DNA of 64,000 bases, taken from positions 62,001 through 126,000 of the IMG/VR virus record IMGVR_UViG_3300025913_000022. One strand, written 5' to 3'. Shown piece by piece: positions 3,243 to 62,414 of this stretch (position 1 is the first letter of the stretch; each line of letters begins with the position of its first letter). Both the position numbers and the translations under genes were made by a program. This stretch comes from a virus. The notes beneath the pieces were generated by a model, which made no database searches, was not told where the DNA came from, and saw only the letters and a program-made list of their open reading frames with translations.

Positions 3243-6200
3243 ATGGCAGAACCAGTAGAAGAGAATACACCCGACAATAAAAACCCTTTGTCACAGGAAA
3301 AAATACCCGTTCCTGCAGACAATCTTGTTAATTATGTTAAGACCCAACAAACAACCACTCCGGTAAACGAAAGGGTTAATTCTGAAGTAGCAGGTGATTA
3401 TCAGAAAGGAGCTAAACCTGCCCCGGCAGATTTTTCTACAGAAGCTCATGTAAATGCGGTTTCTGATTTTTTTAAAAATACTGCTGATTGGGCACCTGAT
3501 AAATTAGCTTACTCGAAACCATTTACGTATGGTGCGGGTTGGCGTAATATGAATTTTGACAGGTATTATGCATCGTCTGGTTTTAAAAAACTAGGTTTTG
3601 ATCCTTATGCTGATAATGAAGCCGTTTACAATAAAAATACTTCTTCTTGGGCTGATATGAATCGCGCGCTTCCGCAAATTGCAAAAGGCGCGTGGTTAGG
3701 TTTTAAAGGTATGCTTACACCATGGTCTACGGATGAAGATGCTGATAAGCAACAAAAGATGTTTGCTATTGGTTCTTCTAGTCGTGGAGGTGTGTCAGGG
3801 TTTGTAACTAATTTGGGTTTGAATGCCGGTTACACGTTAGGTATAATTGGTGAGGCTGTAGGTGAAGAAGCTTTGTTAACTGCTGCTACTATAGGTTCAT
3901 TGGGTACGGCTAGTGAAGCTACACTCCCTCTTATGGGTGCTGAGGCTGCTCGTGCTGGTTCCAGAATCTATGAAGGATGGAAAGGGTTAAACTCGGTGAA
4001 GAAAGCATTTGATGCTGTTAAAACAGCTAATGATGCTAGAAAATTATATGAATTAGCTAAGACAGGAACAAAATCTGTTGCTAAATGGTTACTGCCTGCA
4101 GAAACTGCAACTTTTACTTATGATGCACTGAAGGGGTTAAATGGTATAGATAAACTAAGCACCTATGCAAAAATTCACAAAGGAGTTGGTAGTTTTGTTA
4201 GAGATTTAAGAGAAATAAAAGCTGTAGCTTCTGAATCGGAATTAGAAGGTGGTTCAGTTCAAACAGAAAGAAATGAAGAGTTGATTCACAAGTTTTTCGA
4301 AAAAAACGGTAGACTTCCTGATGAGGATGAGTCTCAGAAAATATTTGAAAGTGCAAAAGAGTCAGGGCAATTAACAGCATGGTCAAACATGCCTCTTATT
4401 TATTTATCCAACAAATTTGTTTTAGATAATGCGCTTAAAGGTTTCAAACCCCTAAAAGCTTTGTTTAGAGAAGAGGGTGAACTTCCGGGAACCATTATCA
4501 AGGACCAAGCAGCGAAAGCAGCCGGAGAGAGTCCATATAAAGCTGTGAGTGGTTTTTCATTGGCAGCAATTAAATCTGGAATCAAACCTTATAGTTTATT
4601 GAAAGGTTCTTTGCGTTATGGTACAGCAAATTTAGCTGAAGCATTACAAGAAAGTGCACAGGAAGTTGTTTCTTCTGCATATAAAAATTATTACGATAAA
4701 ATTTATGAAGATCCTGAGCTGGCTGGTTCACGTTCATTAGCTTCTTCGTTTGCTAAAGGGATGAATGATCAATTTACATCTCAAGGGTTTGATACATTTG
4801 CTTCTGGTTTTTTTATGGGAGGATTAATACAAGGTCCTCAAAAAGTTCTATTTGAAAAAATTCCACAGGCTTTTCATAAAATAACAAATCCACAACAATA
4901 TCAGGAATACAAACAGGCTAAGGAAAAGTATATCAACAGTGTTCTTGAAGCAATGAATGATGTTGAATTGCATCCTTCAAAATATGTTAACGCTATACAC
5001 GAAAATTTTGTTAATCAAAAAAGAGCAGCTACTTCATTAACTGAAACAGAACAAGATGCAGATCGTAAGGCACATAAAGATGCACAGGATGAAGCTATTT
5101 TTGATCATGTATACACTTTATTAAGATCGGGTCACGAACATGTTCTTACTGATCAAATTAAAAATTTAAAAGAATTAAAACCAAACGAATTAGCTGAGGC
5201 ATTTAATAGAGATGTAGATGACCATGATTCTGAAAATAAACCTTTAAATGATAAACTGCAGTCATTTGAAGATAAAATTGGTTATCTTAAAAAAAGATAT
5301 GAAACTATTGAAAAGCAATTTCCTAATCCTTTTGATCCTAAAAAAATAAATCAAGAAAGGGATCCCGCTGCTTATGAAAACGAAGCAAGAAATAAAAATG
5401 TATTCGATTTTTATAAAAAACAGATTCTTTTCTCTCACTATACTTTTGATCGCACTTTAGAAAGAATGAGGGATATTACAGCAGACATTTCTGCTAGTAA
5501 ACCTTTAGAGAAAGCTTCGCTAACAGATGTAAGTTTACTTTTTGATTTACCTTCAATGGGTGAAGAAATAAAAAGTCTTAAAACAGAACTTTCTGCATAC
5601 AATCAAAGTCCTGAGATTTCTACTAAAAAAATAGCAAATCAAAAAAGAGAAAAATTAGAATCTTTACAAGATTTGCAGGATAGTATTCATGGTTATATAA
5701 CTGCTTTAAAATTACGTTCTTCTGCTGAAGTAAAAGCAAGCGCAAAAGATCAAGCTGAACTTAAAGCTAAGATGACTCCGGGCACAAGAGTTATTACAAA
5801 AAAAGGAGAAAATTTAAAAATTAAAGGTGTTCACAAAGATGGTCAAAGATTAATTCTTGAAAATAAAAAACTTTACAATTTTAAAAGTTTAACGTTAGCT
5901 AAAGAATCTAAAGTTGAAAATTTTAATATGGATGGGTTTGTATCTGAACATCTATCAATATTAAAAGATTCTTTTGATGGTTACATGCGCCACTTAGCTA
6001 GTGCTTCGAATGATCATATAATTGATTCGAAAATAAACAGTGCTTTTGATAAGCTTAAAGATTATTATGCGTTGCAACATGAATCGTTTCAAATGGCAAG
6101 TGCTATAAATGCATTAACTAATCCCGAGAGAAGTCGTGAGATATTTGGTAGATATGTTGAAGCTAAAAAAATTCTGGATGCTCAGCGTCTTGAAAAATTA

Positions 6201-7742
6201 AAAAAAGCTTTAGAAGTATTTATGCAAAAAATGGAGCATAATGATTTACTTAATGCTTTATATAAAATTGGTGTTTATTTTGATCCTTCAGAAATAGATT
6301 CTTTTATCAATGATAATAAAATACCGGACGCTTTTTATGATGCAGTAACTTCTGGAAAAATTGAAAAATCTTCTGATAAATTTAAGGAGATAGAAAAGGT
6401 TCTTGAAAAATATAATAAAGTAGTTCGTCCGGACGTTGTTGATAAAATAGAAAAAGAAAAAATTCAAAAAGAAAAAGAGTTATTAAAATCTAAACAAACT
6501 CCTACAGGTATTATTTACATTAGCAGACATGGTTCTAATAGTGATGATGCAGCGGGTGTTGTTTCTGGAAGCACAGCTCCTCCTTTATCTGAAGAAGGTA
6601 AAGCAGAGGTAAGAAAAGAACTTAAAGCTATTACGGATGAAAATGTACAAAAAGTAGTTTCTTCACCAGTAGTACGTGCAAAAGAGTCTGGAGAAATTAT
6701 TGCTAAAAATAAAAAAGCAGAATTAACTACAGATGATAGGTTATCTCCTTGGAATGTTGGAGATGAGCAGACAGGTTTTGCTAAAACACCGGATGAAGAC
6801 TGGGATAAATTATCTGCTTGGTTTGCTAATAATCCAACTGAAAAAGTTTATGCTGGAGTTGATGTGGATAGTGAAGGTGTTAAGTTATCTGAAAAATATG
6901 CTGGTCACTCGATGTTAGAATCATTCGATGAACTTAAAGATCGTGTAATACCTGCAATTAAGGATATTGTTAATAACTCGCCAGATGACACAGCTGTAGT
7001 TACACACTCTAATATAACTCAATTAATAAAAGCTTATGCAGAGAATGGTAAAGTAAATAATGATAATTTAAACCAATTGTTTATAACAAGCCCTCCACTT
7101 AGAAATGGAGAATTGTTACCATTAGAACGTAATGAGATATCTCCACTACCGGCAGCAGTGGTTGTAACTACAGAGCAAAGCAAAGAGGTTCCTTTTGATT
7201 TGGTGAATAAGTTAGAAAATATCACCAATGGTGAAGAACTTAAAAACTTTGAAAAAGAAATTATATCTAAATTGGCTAACTATAAAGAAGCAAATAAATT
7301 AGGTTTAGATGCTGATGCTATAGGACTTTTAATCGAAAGAAAAAAACAAGAGTTAGCAACCTTGTTTAGTTATGATGATGTAAAAGTTGGAAATGTTTTA
7401 ACCATGGTAGATCCTAGATATGATTTAATGATTGTTCTTTCTAAAACAGCTAAAGAAATAAAATTAAGAAAAGTAGGAGAAGAAACAGGACCTGTTTTGG
7501 TAGTTAGAAAATCAACTTTGCATAGAGATGTTAAATATAAATATAGTGGAGAAATGGATGCTACAAAAGGAGGACCTTCTACAGTGAGTGCGGAAGAAAG
7601 TAAAATTTCTGATGTTAGTATTGATAATATCAAAGATTTATCTGAAGATGAAGAAGCTTTGAAAGAAGCTGAAACTAATGCTGTGAATAAAACTCCAGAC
7701 CAATTAAAACAAGATTTAATCGATAAATTAGGATGTAAATGA
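3243..7742 (+). CDS. Giant virion protein with embedded histidine-phosphatase domain, 1499 aa
   Basis: Residues about 190-240 form a Gly/Ala-rich hydrophobic stretch that could insert in a membrane; most of the rest is charged and helical. A small beta domain of SH3/KOW appearance lies near 840-885. Residues about 1088-1290 are a histidine phosphatase (phosphoglycerate-mutase-like) domain: R1095-H1096-G1097 begins the domain, SSPVVRAKES holds R1145, and VVTHSNI holds the second catalytic His, H1255. A further beta-rich segment ends the protein. The stop overlaps the next start (ATGA). The neighbours suggest a virion-borne protein made in step with the RNA polymerase. The substrate of the phosphatase domain cannot be read from sequence. 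Confidence 0.8.
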   Translation: MAEPVEENTPDNKNPLSQEKIPVPADNLVNYVKTQQTTTPVNERVNSEVAGDYQKGAKPAPADFSTEAHVNAVSDFFKNTADWAPDKLAYSKPFTYGAGWRNMNFDRYYASSGFKKLGFDPYADNEAVYNKNTSSWADMNRALPQIAKGAWLGFKGMLTPWSTDEDADKQQKMFAIGSSSRGGVSGFVTNLGLNAGYTLGIIGEAVGEEALLTAATIGSLGTASEATLPLMGAEAARAGSRIYEGWKGLNSVKKAFDAVKTANDARKLYELAKTGTKSVAKWLLPAETATFTYDALKGLNGIDKLSTYAKIHKGVGSFVRDLREIKAVASESELEGGSVQTERNEELIHKFFEKNGRLPDEDESQKIFESAKESGQLTAWSNMPLIYLSNKFVLDNALKGFKPLKALFREEGELPGTIIKDQAAKAAGESPYKAVSGFSLAAIKSGIKPYSLLKGSLRYGTANLAEALQESAQEVVSSAYKNYYDKIYEDPELAGSRSLASSFAKGMNDQFTSQGFDTFASGFFMGGLIQGPQKVLFEKIPQAFHKITNPQQYQEYKQAKEKYINSVLEAMNDVELHPSKYVNAIHENFVNQKRAATSLTETEQDADRKAHKDAQDEAIFDHVYTLLRSGHEHVLTDQIKNLKELKPNELAEAFNRDVDDHDSENKPLNDKLQSFEDKIGYLKKRYETIEKQFPNPFDPKKINQERDPAAYENEARNKNVFDFYKKQILFSHYTFDRTLERMRDITADISASKPLEKASLTDVSLLFDLPSMGEEIKSLKTELSAYNQSPEISTKKIANQKREKLESLQDLQDSIHGYITALKLRSSAEVKASAKDQAELKAKMTPGTRVITKKGENLKIKGVHKDGQRLILENKKLYNFKSLTLAKESKVENFNMDGFVSEHLSILKDSFDGYMRHLASASNDHIIDSKINSAFDKLKDYYALQHESFQMASAINALTNPERSREIFGRYVEAKKILDAQRLEKLKKALEVFMQKMEHNDLLNALYKIGVYFDPSEIDSFINDNKIPDAFYDAVTSGKIEKSSDKFKEIEKVLEKYNKVVRPDVVDKIEKEKIQKEKELLKSKQTPTGIIYISRHGSNSDDAAGVVSGSTAPPLSEEGKAEVRKELKAITDENVQKVVSSPVVRAKESGEIIAKNKKAELTTDDRLSPWNVGDEQTGFAKTPDEDWDKLSAWFANNPTEKVYAGVDVDSEGVKLSEKYAGHSMLESFDELKDRVIPAIKDIVNNSPDDTAVVTHSNITQLIKAYAENGKVNNDNLNQLFITSPPLRNGELLPLERNEISPLPAAVVVTTEQSKEVPFDLVNKLENITNGEELKNFEKEIISKLANYKEANKLGLDADAIGLLIERKKQELATLFSYDDVKVGNVLTMVDPRYDLMIVLSKTAKEIKLRKVGEETGPVLVVRKSTLHRDVKYKYSGEMDATKGGPSTVSAEESKISDVSIDNIKDLSEDEEALKEAETNAVNKTPDQLKQDLIDKLGCK

Positions 7743-30373: not shown

Positions 30374-30409
30374 GAAAAAAGGAGCACCTAATCTAATAGA
30401 TGCCCCTTT
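30374..30409 (-). terminator. Rho-independent terminator
   Basis: Read on the minus strand, AAGGGGCA and TGCTCCTT form an eight-pair stem (one G-T) around a 14-base loop, extended by A-T pairs and followed by a run of T. It lies between the stop of the 188-residue gene and the promoter of the endonuclease/polymerase operon, so it separates two transcription units. Confidence 0.75.
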
Positions 30410-30431: not shown

Positions 30432-30998
30432 TTATTCTTTTTTCTTTGCTGTTGCAGCTTCAGGTGCTTTTGCAGGTTGTTCACTGTTAGTGTGCACAAC
30501 TTTTAAACCTTCTTCTTTTGCCATATTTTCAATGGCTGCACTTCCAGCTTCCGGAGTCATTACCTTTCCTTCTGTATCAACATGCTCAACTTTAAATTTA
30601 CTACCTACGGCTTGTAATTTTGGATCTGTAGAAGGAGCGTCCAAGAATTTTTTAAAATCAAACTCGTTGTGATTTAAAGCAAACATTTTAATGAATTCTT
30701 CTATCTCATTATCTTTTATGATAAAAGATTTTTGAAAAATTTCAGCAAGAATTCTTTGTTTTTTGAAAGGATTTTCTCCCTCTTTACGATGTTTACGCAA
30801 TTCAAAATCCCCGTTGTCATCCACTTTATAAAACATCTGAGGAATGTTTATTTTAGTAGGATTAAAAACAGCAAGTATTTTTGTATCCGGTTCATAAAAT
30901 GCTTCAACAAAAGCACAATCTTTAGATATCGGAATCATTTTGAACGTTTCGTGTCCATCGTTAAGAGCTGTTATCAGCAGCATTGTTTTTTGAATCAT
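30432..30998 (-). CDS. Hypothetical protein with Ala/Lys-rich tail, 188 aa
   Basis: Residues 1-120 look like a compact alpha/beta domain. The last 30 residues are low-complexity, rich in Ala, Pro and Lys. I recognise no family. A terminator follows directly, so this is the last gene of the operon that contains the NAD-related genes. A 57-base gap separates it from the NAMPT-like gene. Confidence 0.6.
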   Translation of the reverse strand: MIQKTMLLITALNDGHETFKMIPISKDCAFVEAFYEPDTKILAVFNPTKINIPQMFYKVDDNGDFELRKHRKEGENPFKKQRILAEIFQKSFIIKDNEIEEFIKMFALNHNEFDFKKFLDAPSTDPKLQAVGSKFKVEHVDTEGKVMTPEAGSAAIENMAKEEGLKVVHTNSEQPAKAPEAATAKKKE

Positions 30999-31055: not shown

Positions 31056-32660
31056 TTATTTCCAAGAATTGTTTTTAACTCTTTCTCTAATTTCGGCTAA
31101 AGATTGTTGAACCACTAAATTTCCATCTTTAAAAATAGTTTTCAACTCGCCTTGTTTTTCTTTATCCCAACTTAATTGATCTTCAAGGTATAAAGCACCG
31201 CTGTGATCATCTTTAAATACACCTAATAAGCCACGGGCAGATTTCTTAGTTCCATCATCAGTAATAGGATCCTTGAAAATTTCTATACCTGCTCTTTCAT
31301 TTTCGATTTCTACCTCAGCATAAGTGGCTTTCATCGCAAAACCATACGTATCACGAGTTACATACTGGTAGGTATATGAACCAATACCAGCTACCCAATT
31401 GATTGACGCAAAACCTTTAGCTTCTAGTTTTTCACAAATTGTATCTGCGCGTTTAGTAGTGATAGAATCACCATAAATAGCACCGATATGTGGATCAAGC
31501 AATTTGTAACCTTTTTCTGTCATGGTTCCACCAAAAATATCCCAAAGAAGTTCAACTACTCCTTTAAATATAGGCTCATCACCTTTCACTTCGACCATTT
31601 CCTGTCCCGGAAATTCTTTTCGTTTAACTTCTCTATAGTTTCGACCCTCTTGTTTAAATAACATTTCACCACACATGATATCAATAGGATCTCCCGAGTC
31701 AGGACGTATAACTACTTTACCATTACGTGCAAGAATAATCTCTTTTAATCGAGGTAAATAATCAGTAAGTACTTTCCAAAGATCCCACGTATCAGAAACT
31801 ATACTGATGATACCGTTAGGGTACACTTCTGTAATTAATCGTTTGAAAACTTCAAATTCAGCATCTCCATAACGTTCCCATGTAAGGTTGCCCTTTTTGA
31901 TATAGAAACCGGTTCCTACACACATTACGGCATGCTCGGTAGCAAACACACTGCAACCCACCAATTCCTTATCAGAATCAGCTTTATAATAGTCCTCTAA
32001 TAATCCAATAGCGGGAATGGTGTCGGTACCCACAAATGATGTTAAATGAGCTGCTCCTGATACTTTAGCGGCTTCCCTTCCAAACATACCACGGTAAGAG
32101 AAGTCATGTCCTTGGAATGGCACAAAATCGATATTTCCAACAGTTTTCATTGCCCATTTGCTGAATATCTTATAATATTCAAAAGCAGTGGTAGCTGAGG
32201 TCATTGGTCCCCAAGTCTCGCAACTCATATCCGTCTCAATATAATTGGTTAACCAGTAGAACTGATCCATGGTGCTTACAACCGTATAGGCAGGCACACG
32301 GATAGGAATAGCTACCCCTTCCGGAATTGCTTTTATTTCTAGGGGCATGTAACCAAGGTCGTGCAGCAATCTAACGTGCTCTATACCGATGGCATCTGCT
32401 GCTTCCGGGCTGGTATAATTTTTTATTCTGCGATAAAAAGCTTTCCCAACTTCCTCAAAAGGCTTGCTAAAGAATTCTTTGTTCCACAGTTCAATTAAAG
32501 TGCTGATCACGTAGTATTGGATACCAAATACAACTACTTGGTTTACGCCTTCTACGCGGCTTTTTCTGGGGGTAAAGTTAGAGTAAACTAACTTTGTTTC
32601 TTTTGGGTACTGGCGACGGTGATCTATTTTGTAACCGTCTGTGTTTAAAATTGGTGTCAT
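31056..32660 (-). CDS. NAMPT-like nicotinamide transferase (candidate Namat of NARP1), 534 aa
   Basis: Full-length nicotinamide phosphoribosyltransferase fold. Active-site positions line up with human NAMPT: D8-G-Y (human D16/Y18), H185-D-F187-S-Y-R (F193/R196), D213 (D219), H243 in ATEH (catalytic H247), D290 in SDTW (D279), and R319-P-D321 in IRPDSGDP (R311/D313). A NAMPT would make NMN from nicotinamide and PRPP. The closest known phage setting, beside a PRPP-synthetase homologue with no NMN adenylyltransferase, is NARP1. There this enzyme (Namat) joins nicotinamide to ADP-ribose pyrophosphate to give NAD+ directly. Sequence alone does not separate the two substrates. Confidence 0.85.
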   Translation of the reverse strand: MTPILNTDGYKIDHRRQYPKETKLVYSNFTPRKSRVEGVNQVVVFGIQYYVISTLIELWNKEFFSKPFEEVGKAFYRRIKNYTSPEAADAIGIEHVRLLHDLGYMPLEIKAIPEGVAIPIRVPAYTVVSTMDQFYWLTNYIETDMSCETWGPMTSATTAFEYYKIFSKWAMKTVGNIDFVPFQGHDFSYRGMFGREAAKVSGAAHLTSFVGTDTIPAIGLLEDYYKADSDKELVGCSVFATEHAVMCVGTGFYIKKGNLTWERYGDAEFEVFKRLITEVYPNGIISIVSDTWDLWKVLTDYLPRLKEIILARNGKVVIRPDSGDPIDIMCGEMLFKQEGRNYREVKRKEFPGQEMVEVKGDEPIFKGVVELLWDIFGGTMTEKGYKLLDPHIGAIYGDSITTKRADTICEKLEAKGFASINWVAGIGSYTYQYVTRDTYGFAMKATYAEVEIENERAGIEIFKDPITDDGTKKSARGLLGVFKDDHSGALYLEDQLSWDKEKQGELKTIFKDGNLVVQQSLAEIRERVKNNSWK

Positions 32661-32672
32661 ATTGTTGGTTTT

Positions 32673-32975
32673 TTAGTTTTGATTAACAGTTACTCTTTTT
32701 GAATATTTTCCACCTGTGTCCCAAGATATAGATTTTATATTTTTACCTTTTGTAAAATATATGTGGCTAAAATTCCAATTTATACTATCAAGAGAAGTAT
32801 GTACAAATAGACTATCATTTCCTATAATTTTAAGAAAATGATCTTCTTCTCCATAATTTATATTGAGCTTAACACCTTGAAACACATTATTTCCAGAACT
32901 ATTGTATACTTCTTTTACAGTCGGAACATGACATTGAAAAAAGATCAATGGAAGTAATAAAATTATTTTTTTCAT
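32673..32975 (-). CDS. Small lipoprotein, 100 aa
   Basis: The N-terminus is a lipoprotein signal peptide (MKKIILLLPLIFFQC) with the lipid-carrying Cys at 15. The mature part is beta-rich. It overlaps the neighbouring lipoprotein gene by four bases, inside the candidate NAD+ operon. Function unknown; surface or periplasmic location expected. Confidence 0.6.
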   Translation of the reverse strand: MKKIILLLPLIFFQCHVPTVKEVYNSSGNNVFQGVKLNINYGEEDHFLKIIGNDSLFVHTSLDSINWNFSHIYFTKGKNIKSISWDTGGKYSKRVTVNQN

Positions 32976-33247
32976 TTATTATAATTAGGGTTAAAAGGAA
33001 CTACTTGGATTTCATCATATATTTTGAATAATCCTCTTTTGGCTATGAAGGTTGACCTATGCATTCTGTTACCTGCACTTCTTCCAGAACCCATACTACT
33101 GATTCCAGATAAAACAGTGTATCTATCTGTGGAATCCTTATATGTTTCTATTGCAATAACAAAAGGTGCTCTTGGTTCAAATTCTATTTCTTCATTTTCA
33201 CAAGCATTCAGAATAATTAAAGCTACTATTATTATAACTTTTTTCAT
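32972..33247 (-). CDS. Small lipoprotein, 91 aa
   Basis: Lipoprotein signal peptide (MKKVIIIVALIILNAC) with Cys at 16, then an acidic segment and a beta-rich mature part with a Ser/Gly/Arg-rich loop. Coupled by four-base overlaps to the HAD gene upstream and the other lipoprotein downstream. It may act in superinfection exclusion, but that is only a guess from the type of protein. Confidence 0.6.
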   Translation of the reverse strand: MKKVIIIVALIILNACENEEIEFEPRAPFVIAIETYKDSTDRYTVLSGISSMGSGRSAGNRMHRSTFIAKRGLFKIYDEIQVVPFNPNYNK

Positions 33248-33690
33248 GCTGCGTCGTCTAAATTGATTTTTGATTGTTTATAAGCTCTCACTTTGTACAC
33301 TGTTACTTCTAACATATCCAAAGCTTCATCAATACCTGCACGATCATCCAAGAAGATATTAGCGTATATTTTACCGTTCTTACCATAAGGCACATCAATA
33401 GGTGTAATATTAATACCATCTATATCTAAACCTTTGTCTGCACAGTATTTTTTAATCTCTTCATAACGGTCCTCATTACAGGCTGTGAATACAACTAACC
33501 ATATACCTGTCTGCTTACAAACTTTCAGGAGATTTATTGTTTTATCCAGCTTGATAAGATCCTCTTGATCTTTGAACTTCCATGGAGAAATTGTGTCATC
33601 GAAATCAACAGCGGCAACAATTTTACCGTGCTGTACCCACTCTTCGTAAAGACGTTGGTAATATTTGTTTTTGTGGTTTATCGGTGTCAT
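33244..33690 (-). CDS. HAD-superfamily phosphatase-like protein, 148 aa
   Basis: HAD motifs in order: D-F-D-D-T (motif I, about residues 21-25), VVFTACN (motif II Thr) and FLDDRAG (motif IV Asp pair), with a short cap. The start chosen is the ATG at 33688-33690, one base after the stop of the PRPP-synthetase-like gene. The 36 extra upstream codons lie inside that gene and do not look like protein. It lies between the two NAD+-pathway candidates, so a nucleotide-sugar or phospho-ribose substrate is possible; this is inference. Confidence 0.78.
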   Translation of the reverse strand: MTPINHKNKYYQRLYEEWVQHGKIVAAVDFDDTISPWKFKDQEDLIKLDKTINLLKVCKQTGIWLVVFTACNEDRYEEIKKYCADKGLDIDGINITPIDVPYGKNGKIYANIFLDDRAGIDEALDMLEVTVYKVRAYKQSKINLDDAA

Positions 33691-33691
33691 T

Positions 33692-34624
33692 TTAAAATAG
33701 ATTACGTTGTTTAACAAAACTGTTAGGATGAATTTCACCTTCAAATACAATGATGTCTGATAAATCTTTATAGCTATTTGTAGTATAAATGTTATCAAAA
33801 TATTGAGCTAGTTCTTGAAATCCTTTACTAAATATTCCGTGAGTTACAACAAGTGAAATTTTACTTTTACAAATCTCGTTTTCACAAGCAACATTATATT
33901 TATGTATTTTGTTTTTTATTTCTTTAGCAATTTCAATAAAAGTTTTACCTCCATCGCATATGTCATCTATTATAACAAAATTCTTTTTTTCGTGATGTGC
34001 TATGTTTAAAGGAACATCTGTTTTGGTTAGTTTACCTTCTTCATTTCTGTGTTTACTACAAACAATAATTTCTCCATTGTAATTTATTTTCTCAGCTATT
34101 TTGTAAATCTTTTTTAAAGAACCTCCATCAGGAGAAACTAAAACAAAATCATTTAATTTTGCGTTAGTATCAGAAATAAAAGATTCAACCACAGTTAAAT
34201 TATCTATTTTCTGAAAATTATTTAAACAAGCTTCCAAAACATCCGAGTGAGGGTCCATAACGGTTACTGAATTAAAATTCAAATCATTTATTGGTGGACA
34301 ACTTACTTCCTTCAAATAATTATTTGATCCTTCCTCAAATTTTCTATCTGACCTTGAACCTAAAAAGTATGGTGTATACAAATGGATTTCTTTAACTCCT
34401 AAATCTCTTAACGATCTGGTTGCACATGTAATAAGCTCCAAATCCATAAAATTATTATATCGAGATTTAATTTGTACGGCTTTATCACAGAAACTGCTTC
34501 CCCATTCTTTACTTTCATGAGTTCTCCATCCAATGATGTTAACCTGTTGTTGCCCATCGGGAAACTTAATGATTTTGTATTTAAGGTCTGATTTTTCCAG
34601 ACTTGTTAAATTTAGTGTTATCAT
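33692..34624 (-). CDS. PRPP-synthetase-like enzyme (candidate Adps of NARP1), 310 aa
   Basis: Ribose-phosphate pyrophosphokinase fold. The FPDG motif is at 21-24, SRSDRKFEEG at 90-99 (ATP-binding flap region), DPHSD at 124-128, SPDGG at 164-168, and the PP-ribose loop IIDDICDGGKTF at 218-229. A standard Prs makes PRPP from ribose 5-phosphate and ATP. In the phage NARP1 pathway a homologue (Adps) instead pyrophosphorylates ADP-ribose. The partner NAMPT-like gene lies in the same operon, so Adps is the favoured reading, but substrate choice needs biochemistry. Confidence 0.85.
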   Translation of the reverse strand: MITLNLTSLEKSDLKYKIIKFPDGQQQVNIIGWRTHESKEWGSSFCDKAVQIKSRYNNFMDLELITCATRSLRDLGVKEIHLYTPYFLGSRSDRKFEEGSNNYLKEVSCPPINDLNFNSVTVMDPHSDVLEACLNNFQKIDNLTVVESFISDTNAKLNDFVLVSPDGGSLKKIYKIAEKINYNGEIIVCSKHRNEEGKLTKTDVPLNIAHHEKKNFVIIDDICDGGKTFIEIAKEIKNKIHKYNVACENEICKSKISLVVTHGIFSKGFQELAQYFDNIYTTNSYKDLSDIIVFEGEIHPNSFVKQRNLF

Positions 34625-34635
34625 GATTTATGTTT

Positions 34636-35088
34636 TTAAAATTTTCTACGACAATATTCTGCGATTAAAAATGCATCGGAATTCCAAAGGACAACTTCAC
34701 TTTTAGGAAATAACTCTTGAGCTTTTCTTTTCAATCTGTTTTTCCAAGAAGTAGAGGTTTCTCCCTTTTCCTTTTTCAACATATAAGATTTCATCCATGT
34801 TTGCGGTGTAATTTCCTGATAGGATATCTTACACAATTCTAAGGTGTACAATAATCTTTCGACATTTACTCCAAAGGTAAAATTGGCTTTAGCTCCGTTC
34901 GTTGGTCTGCAGCCTACCTTTTCTAGTAAACAGAAACAGTGTTTATCTGTATACTTACCCAAACGCTCTCTGAAAGCATCTCTGGTTTCAGGTGTTTTGA
35001 ATACTTCAAGCACTCTACCATCTCCAGATAGAACTACAAACCCTCCGGACTGTCCGGGATCGCATCCGATGAAAATCTTCTCGCTCAT
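34636..35088 (-). CDS. RuvC-like Holliday junction resolvase, 150 aa
   Basis: RNase H-fold resolvase with acidic residues in the expected places: D10 in GCDPGQSGG, E56 in LLEKVG and D138 in NSDAFLIAEYC. The Lys/Arg-rich helix near 115-122 fits DNA contact. It would resolve branched replication or recombination intermediates before packaging. The length is normal for phage RuvC-type enzymes. It sits with primase and dNMP kinase genes. Confidence 0.88.
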   Translation of the reverse strand: MSEKIFIGCDPGQSGGFVVLSGDGRVLEVFKTPETRDAFRERLGKYTDKHCFCLLEKVGCRPTNGAKANFTFGVNVERLLYTLELCKISYQEITPQTWMKSYMLKKEKGETSTSWKNRLKRKAQELFPKSEVVLWNSDAFLIAEYCRRKF

Positions 35089-35897: not shown

Positions 35898-36872
35898 TTA
35901 GTTTAATAATTTAATTAGTTCTTTTTTAACTGGTGCCTGCCCTAATGCTTCTATTGAATCAGATGCATCTTTGTGACCAAGATCTAAAGTAATGTAAGGA
36001 ATACCATATCGCTCCTTATACACCTCTCTCGATGTGTAACCTGCTTTATCATTATCAAACAGTGTCACAATGTTATTGTACTTCAATCTGACATTATTTA
36101 TATAACGCTGCGATATGATTGTATTCTCGCTATCAGGAGAGATGATTTCCCAATTAGGTATCTCAAGAGCATGGATGGCACAAATGTCCTTCATTGCCTT
36201 TGTAATGAGTAAATTCGGCACACTACCTGTTAATTGATCAGTACCTTGTATATACTCTTTTACCTTAATGAATTTGCATTCTTTAACCATCGGTTGATAT
36301 ATCTTGCACAAATCACCATTTTTCCTAAAATAACCGTACACATTGTTTCTTACTATTTTTAAGGTTTTGGGCACACCATTCTCTTCTTTTGTAAGGCAGT
36401 AATGGTCCAAAGGAGCTATGTTGTAATTCTCTAAAAGCTTTGAGCTGATGTGGTATTTATCAAACCAAAATTGTTTATCTAAAACGTTCCAGCGTCGTAA
36501 TTCAAATGAGCTTACTTTGTACTTAGATAGAATTTTGTATTCGCGATCTGTAGAACCACTATTACCGGCAAGATGTTTTTCATAGTCCTTTTGAATTTTG
36601 CTCAGCACTTGTGCGCGTTTTAAATCAGGAAATAATAAAGCAACAAGGTCCGTCGCAGAACCACCTCTTCCTGATGAGAAGTCTTTGAAGAAGTAGCGTT
36701 TGTTTTTTTCGTAGAAAATTGTGAAGCTTGGGTTTTTTTCCGCAGAGTTCATCGGAGATTTTATTTTGAGTTCCTGCCCGTATAATCTTTCGGATAGATT
36801 CAAATAAAATTCGAAGATCCATTCTTCAGGAATCTCTCTTACACCAGTTACAACACATTTAGTATTGATCAT
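35898..36872 (-). CDS. DnaG-type primase with TOPRIM domain, 324 aa
   Basis: A TOPRIM core is visible: LLITKAMKDICAIHAL (222-236), where the usual Glu of the first motif appears to be replaced as in other phage primases with ITKSxKD, then LFDNDKAG with D273/D275. The N-terminal half (FKDFSSGRGGSATDLVALLF, about 62-81) matches the region after the zinc finger in DnaG, but no Cys-rich zinc finger is present. It would prime DNA synthesis together with the DnaB-like helicase at 44.6-45.7 kb. It overlaps the kinase gene by four bases. Confidence 0.85.
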   Translation of the reverse strand: MINTKCVVTGVREIPEEWIFEFYLNLSERLYGQELKIKSPMNSAEKNPSFTIFYEKNKRYFFKDFSSGRGGSATDLVALLFPDLKRAQVLSKIQKDYEKHLAGNSGSTDREYKILSKYKVSSFELRRWNVLDKQFWFDKYHISSKLLENYNIAPLDHYCLTKEENGVPKTLKIVRNNVYGYFRKNGDLCKIYQPMVKECKFIKVKEYIQGTDQLTGSVPNLLITKAMKDICAIHALEIPNWEIISPDSENTIISQRYINNVRLKYNNIVTLFDNDKAGYTSREVYKERYGIPYITLDLGHKDASDSIEALGQAPVKKELIKLLN

Positions 36873-61937: not shown

Positions 61938-62414
61938 TTAAATTAATTTATAAATTCCTAACTCTACGAGTTGTTTGACTGTATATGTGACTAACTCATC
62001 CTTTGCCATTACTGTTTGGTTAACCCCGTAACCAAGTTGAATTAACAATTGATGTTGTTTATCTAACATACCTTTTGTTGGAATATGATCTGTATAAGGC
62101 TGTCCACCGAAAGAATGTCTAATGACTAAAATATCATTTGAAATTTTTATTTCTTCTATGTGAGTAGGATGAGCATGAAATCCTAAATTAGTAACCGATA
62201 ATAATTTTTTAGCATCTTCTTGGGTTAATTTAGATAAATCTTTCACATTTATAAAACAACCATCGTATGCTTTTTCATCCATTCTTAAAGCACCACAATC
62301 ACCATAATCTAATGTTGTAGAAGAATAGCCGCTTAATTCAAAATCATCTTTTAAAGTGATTTTAACTACTCCTACATAAGGAGCATATATAATTGCTTTT
62401 AATTCGTTTTTCAT
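61938..62414 (-). CDS. Hypothetical protein, 158 aa
   Basis: Beta-rich protein with a conserved-looking GFHAHPTHIEEI segment (about 98-109). Its ATG (62412-62414) overlaps the TGA at 62411-62413 that closes the alternative frame of the preceding cysteine-cluster gene, which shows where that gene really ended. Confidence 0.55.
   Translation of the reverse strand: MKNELKAIIYAPYVGVVKITLKDDFELSGYSSTTLDYGDCGALRMDEKAYDGCFINVKDLSKLTQEDAKKLLSVTNLGFHAHPTHIEEIKISNDILVIRHSFGGQPYTDHIPTKGMLDKQHQLLIQLGYGVNQTVMAKDELVTYTVKQLVELGIYKLI

Follow-up and report, generated by a model that had tools for sequence, protein, structure and literature searches.

A candidate NARP1 operon for NAD+ reconstitution in a virus genome, and a HAD phosphatase that recurs beside its two enzymes

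Does a phage operon that pairs a homologue of phosphoribosyl pyrophosphate (PRPP) synthetase with a homologue of NAMPT encode the NARP1 route to nicotinamide adenine dinucleotide (NAD+), and what are the three genes between the two enzymes for? The operon lies in a 64,000-nt stretch (the window; positions 62,001 to 126,000) of the 129,321-bp IMG/VR virus record IMGVR_UViG_3300025913_000022, and coordinates below are given on the window. From 34624 to 31056 the minus strand carries a single tight unit: an Adps-like gene, a HAD phosphatase gene, the genes of putative lipoproteins A and B, and a Namat-like gene. The gaps between them are only +1, -4, -4 and +12 nt, so co-transcription from Adps to Namat is very likely. 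All five genes are thus where a preliminary description of this DNA, made from its letters alone, had placed them. The published account of NARP1 has two genes, Adps and Namat (PMC12774641), and it is highly probable from sequence that the operon is NARP1. We also think it likely that the HAD phosphatase is functionally tied to NARP1, probably as a third part of the pathway; gene context gives this link good support.

The Namat-like and Adps-like proteins

The Namat-like gene (31056–32660, minus strand, 534 aa) encodes a NAMPT homologue whose match to the NAMPT family phrog_448 (E=2.6e-192) is far beyond chance. Namat and Nampt are set apart by an adenine-selectivity clamp, and the helix signature that goes with it is GSX(T/S)X(Q/N)X(N/V)TRD (Lan et al., PMC12774641). 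Taken with an aromatic X at both position 3 and position 7, this signature is matched exactly by GSYTYQYVTRD in the window protein. The Namat of phage SPbetaL1 touches NAD+ or nicotinamide through 20 residues; 18 of them are identical here, the adenine clamp included, and the two others are F392, replaced by Y at a stacking position, and A362, replaced by S. R40, Y396, T398, R399 and D400 (SPbetaL1 numbering) are kept, and the residues of human NAMPT at the positions of R40, F392 and Y396 are K, G and K. Identity to SPbetaL1 Namat is 50.6% overall. Among solved structures 9w5x and 9w5w match best (518 bits, against about 214 bits for human NAMPT); these appear to be SPbetaL1 Namat, since their aligned segments match its sequence where compared. 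In a maximum-likelihood tree, a single branch with 100% support in the Shimodaira–Hasegawa-like approximate likelihood ratio test (SH-aLRT) splits 54 Namat-type proteins from five Nampts, and the window protein lies with SPbetaL1 on the Namat side, its nearest neighbour being that of locus L007 (63% identity; L numbers are our locus labels). The tree is of a quick type, holds only five Nampts and has flagged long branches, and therefore only the main Namat/Nampt split is used. The protein is accordingly a predicted nicotinamide ADP-ribose transferase.

The Adps-like gene (33692–34624, minus strand, 310 aa), with a match to the ribose-phosphate pyrophosphokinase family phrog_619 (E=1e-60) that is likewise far beyond chance and the same strand and in the same tight operon, is predicted to encode an ADP-ribose pyrophosphokinase. 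Its product scores 78–80 bits against the Prs subfamily model TIGR01251, below the housekeeping threshold of 113. Five cellular Prs sequences, all partial and taken from PDB alignments, group together without it (98% SH-aLRT), and its nearest relatives are NARP1-linked Adps proteins, the closest being that of L054 (72% identity). At about 32% identity to SPbetaL1 Adps it belongs to another sub-lineage. We found no published signature by which to test Adps against Prs, and the assignment draws on the family score, the tree and the pairing. Across the cassette the closest relatives differ (Adps L054, Namat L007, HAD L032); the lack of a common closest relative hints at exchange of genes between NARP1 cassettes.

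The NARP1 claim of the preliminary description is therefore upheld by the clamp signature, the contact residues, the position of Namat in its tree and the sub-threshold Prs score, and neither protein shows a clear grouping with housekeeping Prs or NadV, the outcome that would have spoken against it. The NARP1 systems of phages SPbetaL1 and Bas63 resemble the window in the homology of both enzymes, the signature, the clamp residues and the tight operon, but they are two-gene systems, whereas the window has the HAD and two small putative lipoproteins between the pair.

A HAD phosphatase beside the pair

The HAD gene (33244–33690, minus strand, 148 aa) most plausibly starts at the ATG at 33690, 1 nt past the Adps stop; the TTG at 33798, a mechanical open reading frame (ORF) call, would overlap Adps and was set aside. 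The product is a predicted capless-type HAD phosphatase with complete catalytic motifs I–IV (DxDxT, T, K, DD) at D29xD31xT33, T69, K107 and D115 D116. Among 41 relatives D29, D31, T33, K107 and D115 are invariant, and T69 and D116 nearly so. An AlphaFold model built from 41 sequences has a mean predicted local distance difference test (pLDDT) score of 92.7 and replaced a poor single-sequence fold (pLDDT 46); its secondary structure suggests that there is no large cap insertion. The best PDB match of the model is 2obb, BT_0820, a structural-genomics protein described merely as conserved. Both profile and fold put the BT_0820 family (NF046079) nearest among named HAD families, but at 25 bits the window protein falls below the cut-off of 165 and is not a member. 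Weaker Foldseek matches are polynucleotide 3'-phosphatase domains (Pnkp1, T4 PNKP) and a phage arabinose-diphosphate phosphatase. In two RefSeq crAss-like phage records (NC_055880.1, NC_055884.1) the HAD homologue is labelled 'phosphoheptose isomerase', which looks like a mis-transferred name.

The HAD is no private insertion of the window phage: it recurs by the pair in other phages and in bacterial chromosomes. Relatives directly adjoin the Adps/Namat pair in the crAss-like phages cr111_1, cr126_1, DAC15 and DAC17, in Vibrio phage VPT02, in Aeromonas phage PhAER-3 and in Phass-1; in Tenacibaculum phage PTm1 the neighbour is Namat, and in the Prevotella Lak phages examined it is Adps. (In Lak phages L026 and L027, Namat is in the same genome, more than 90 kb from HAD and Adps.) The Crassvirales Namat-HAD-Adps loci (cr111_1, cr126_1, Bacteroides phage DAC15) hold the window's three families side by side, in records that do not name NARP1; the window order is reversed relative to theirs, and they lack the lipoproteins. 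Adps or Namat lies no more than 6 kb from the HAD at 45 of 80 IMG/VR loci. After the IMG/VR loci were collapsed at 90% identity and named phages and the window were added, this held for 42 of 66 members; by comparison, 3.8% of phage records contain a Namat of any kind. On the HAD tree the NARP1-neighbour label changes 7 times, compared with 20 when shuffled.

To allow for the HAD seeding of this sample, we added one seeded with Namat only (158 loci, 107 non-redundant at 85%). Adps is present in 100 of the 107 loci and the HAD in 20, in 18 of these on the same strand and no more than 150 nt away, so that the HAD is still the commonest extra family and its adjacency is not an artefact of seeding. 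Other families are a nucleoside-2-deoxyribosyltransferase (NDT)-like protein (17/107), macro domains (13/107) and NADAR (6/107). Gene order varies: Adps-HAD-Namat, Namat-HAD-Adps, HAD-Namat-Adps, Adps-Namat-HAD and HAD-Adps-Namat all occur. The idea that HAD and macro domain are mutually exclusive stand-ins for one job is not supported: none of the 13 Namat-seeded macro loci has a HAD, but the Fisher test gives p=0.12, and the two occur together in six HAD-seeded loci.

The trio is also chromosomal. GTDB genomes gave 56 HAD loci, some of which may be prophages; the operons that join the HAD to Adps and Namat are mostly in Bacteroidota. Of the HADs, 49 score above 90 bits; Adps or Namat accompanies 37 of these, and 32 are found with an NrtR-type regulator, so called from one tested example with NUDIX and NrtR winged-helix domains. 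Typical orders are NrtR-Adps-HAD-Namat (e.g. Flavobacterium, Saprospiraceae, Chitinophagaceae) and NrtR-Namat-HAD-Adps (Tamlana, Winogradskyella, Tenacibaculum). Two Paenibacillaceae have the trio as well. The signature is present in most chromosomal Namats, but the simple pattern does not match those of three Mucilaginibacter loci or a few more. NrtR-family regulators are known in NAD metabolism. One Bacteroides member governs arabinose use (PMC4666351), so the NrtR name alone is no proof of NAD regulation. Paenibacillus foliorum has a chromosomal NARP1 of Adps and Namat that is active in vitro and in vivo, and its description has no mention of a HAD or NrtR (PMC12774641); a related Paenibacillus chromosome (L292) has the order NrtR-HAD-Adps-Namat.

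The lipoproteins stand apart. Putative lipoprotein A (32972–33247, minus strand, 91 aa) has a signal peptide and an LNAC lipobox and overlaps the HAD stop by 4 nt; no relatives were found in phages or IMG/VR. Putative lipoprotein B (32673–32975, minus strand, 100 aa) has a hydrophobic N-terminus, but its FFQC is a poor lipobox and the call is weak; homologue searches found none. Both look private to the window phage, and their overlapping genes sit inside an otherwise cytosolic metabolic operon. The preliminary description had presented the HAD and the lipoproteins alike as inserted between the pair; an insertion private to this phage looks right for the lipoproteins but not for the HAD, a recurrent neighbour in phages and bacteria.

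What the three enzymes may do

The best explanation as a whole, which we regard as probable, is that the NARP1 pair remakes NAD+ and the HAD works in the same metabolite pathway. Gene context suggests NAD or ADP-ribose metabolism for the HAD even away from NARP1, as PnuC, NadR, NMNAT-like or NadE genes adjoin some HADs that lack it. A host NADase defence would cleave NAD+ into nicotinamide and ADP-ribose; Adps would use ATP to pyrophosphorylate ADP-ribose, and Namat would couple the product to nicotinamide, giving NAD+ in two steps. Homologues elsewhere have been shown to carry out this chemistry, which is predicted here by analogy. The HAD, in turn, might dephosphorylate forms of ADP-ribose that Adps could not use and so return ADP-ribose to it. 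Candidate substrates are ADP-ribose-1''-phosphate (ADPr-1''P), from RES-type NAD+ phosphorylases or from breakdown of the Adps product, and 2'-phospho-ADP-ribose, from NADP+. That its substrate is a phosphorylated ADP-ribose species is our best guess, though a tentative one. RES enzymes convert NAD+ to ADPr-1''P (Iyer et al., PMC9503650), which would presumably require dephosphorylation before use by Adps. There is a precedent for a feeder enzyme in the NARP1 operon of mycobacteriophage DyoEdafos, where RyDEP produces ADP-ribose (PMC13232231). RyDEP, likewise a third enzyme, is an RyR-domain glycosidase acting on cyclic ADP-ribose, whereas the HAD has an unrelated fold and would be expected to remove phosphate. 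With low confidence we put forward the possibility that the HAD is a third enzyme devoted to NARP1, one that would rescue ADP-ribose from phosphorylated dead ends such as ADPr-1''P and thereby extend NARP1 to RES-type defences or toxins with a product that Adps could not use directly. The NARP1 literature searched, from which the founding NARP1 and 2008 NrtR regulon papers were absent, does not mention the HAD or NrtR; an earlier mention is possible.

Several observations weigh against a role of the HAD in NARP1. The pair can do without it, as about 80% of Namat-seeded loci have none. Of the 24 HADs without nearby NARP1, 17 form one clade, the same HAD family in one phage lineage (about 25 of the 35 raw loci of this kind have neighbouring genes in common). 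The HAD also adjoins PnuC/NadR genes, and in their salvage route ADP-ribose is not an NAD+ precursor. Phage macro domains could fill the job proposed for the HAD and occur together with it in some loci. The 3'-phosphatases among its nearest folds would fit RNA repair.

Three other explanations have to be set against NARP1 with a linked HAD. The pair itself could serve ordinary salvage, in which a true PRPP synthetase and NAMPT (NadV) make nicotinamide mononucleotide (NMN) and the host completes NAD+, in a NARP2-like or metabolic role. Curated models do call the two proteins ribose-phosphate pyrophosphokinase and nicotinate phosphoribosyltransferase, and Namat keeps some NMN-forming activity with PRPP (PMC12774641). 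However, the protein has the clamp signature and contact residues of a Namat, the tree parts the window protein from the Nampts, and Adps scores under the Prs cut-offs. Moreover, an NMN adenylyltransferase (NMNAT; PF01467), expected beside NadV in NARP2 as NadM or NadR, had no match anywhere in the 129,321-bp record (which may be incomplete), while 14 of 14 control genomes were positive, in line with the absence noted in the preliminary description. We consider ordinary salvage very improbable.

The other two concern the HAD alone. It might be a general clean-up enzyme on the NAD side, an NMN 5'-nucleotidase or pyrophosphatase that takes away product and so drives Namat (and NMNAT) forward. 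Pyrophosphate arises in the Namat as well as the NMNAT reaction, Namat forms NMN from PRPP as a side reaction, LigA releases NMN, and HAD relatives adjoin PnuC/NadR, NMNAT-like plus NadE, and LigA-like genes. Against this, hosts already have pyrophosphatases, removal of NMN would waste a precursor, and LigA and NadE neighbours were each seen only once; clean-up is conceivable, at odds well short of even. Alternatively, the HAD could be an RNA-end phosphatase of tRNA repair, next to NARP1 merely as a fellow counter-defence gene. Foldseek gives the Pnkp1 and T4 PNKP phosphatase domains after BT_0820, and phage sirtuin neighbourhoods with an RNA-end HAD have been described (Iyer et al., PMC9503650). 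Yet the recurrent partners of NARP1-linked members are NAD and ADP-ribose genes, and the chromosomal operons have an NrtR-type regulator, which makes this reading unlikely.

Neighbouring genes and significance

Upstream of Adps the unit continues through genes for a RuvC-like resolvase (34636–35088, minus strand; phrog_1770, E=4e-24), which ends 11 nt before Adps, a primase (35898–36872) and a deoxynucleoside monophosphate kinase. The primase matched 67 phage records, named for uncultured (crAss-like), Bacteroides, Cellulophaga and similar phages, which points to a crAss-like relative as the source phage. The RuvC-like neighbour, tried as a control family, recovered a single relative. A pattern scan found terminator-like hairpins on the minus strand at the downstream end of the unit (30378–30409, after 30432–30998; 13-pair stem) and beyond the upstream side of the wider unit (38256–38225), both as consensus matches only. 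Elsewhere in the window, a 1499-aa ORF (3243–7742) has a histidine phosphatase domain at residues 1091–1272, unusual for a large phage protein. The virion RNA polymerase motif DxDGD was not found in the giant ORFs.

Other genes keep company with the HAD or Namat. The NDT-like gene (PF15891) recurs within NARP1 cassettes (L005, L008, L013, L063, L098 at 6416–6889, and others), in 15 of 41 HAD loci with NARP1 and 0 of 24 without, and its product could be a further accessory enzyme on the ADP-ribose side. NADAR and macro-domain genes cluster with Namat (L013:6517–6999, L093:4829–5311, L248:6469–6942, and others). In a 735-kb phage (LR756501.1, L030) the HAD adjoins PnuC-like, NMNAT-like and nicotinamidase-like genes, identified by eye, and an Adps-like gene lies about 20 kb away. 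Bacterial relatives adjoin a gene resembling NAD+-dependent DNA ligase (LigA), again by eye (L308:504–2498), and NMNAT-like and NAD synthase (NadE) genes (L317:2706–4073).

NARP1 has so far been described as a two-enzyme phage route that reverses NAD+-depleting immunity. A third enzyme family that recurs by the pair in unrelated phages and in NrtR-linked chromosomes would point to an unrecognised step of NAD+ repair. That the trio is common to NrtR-linked bacterial operons and phages suggests a regulated cellular repair system, and not a phage weapon alone.

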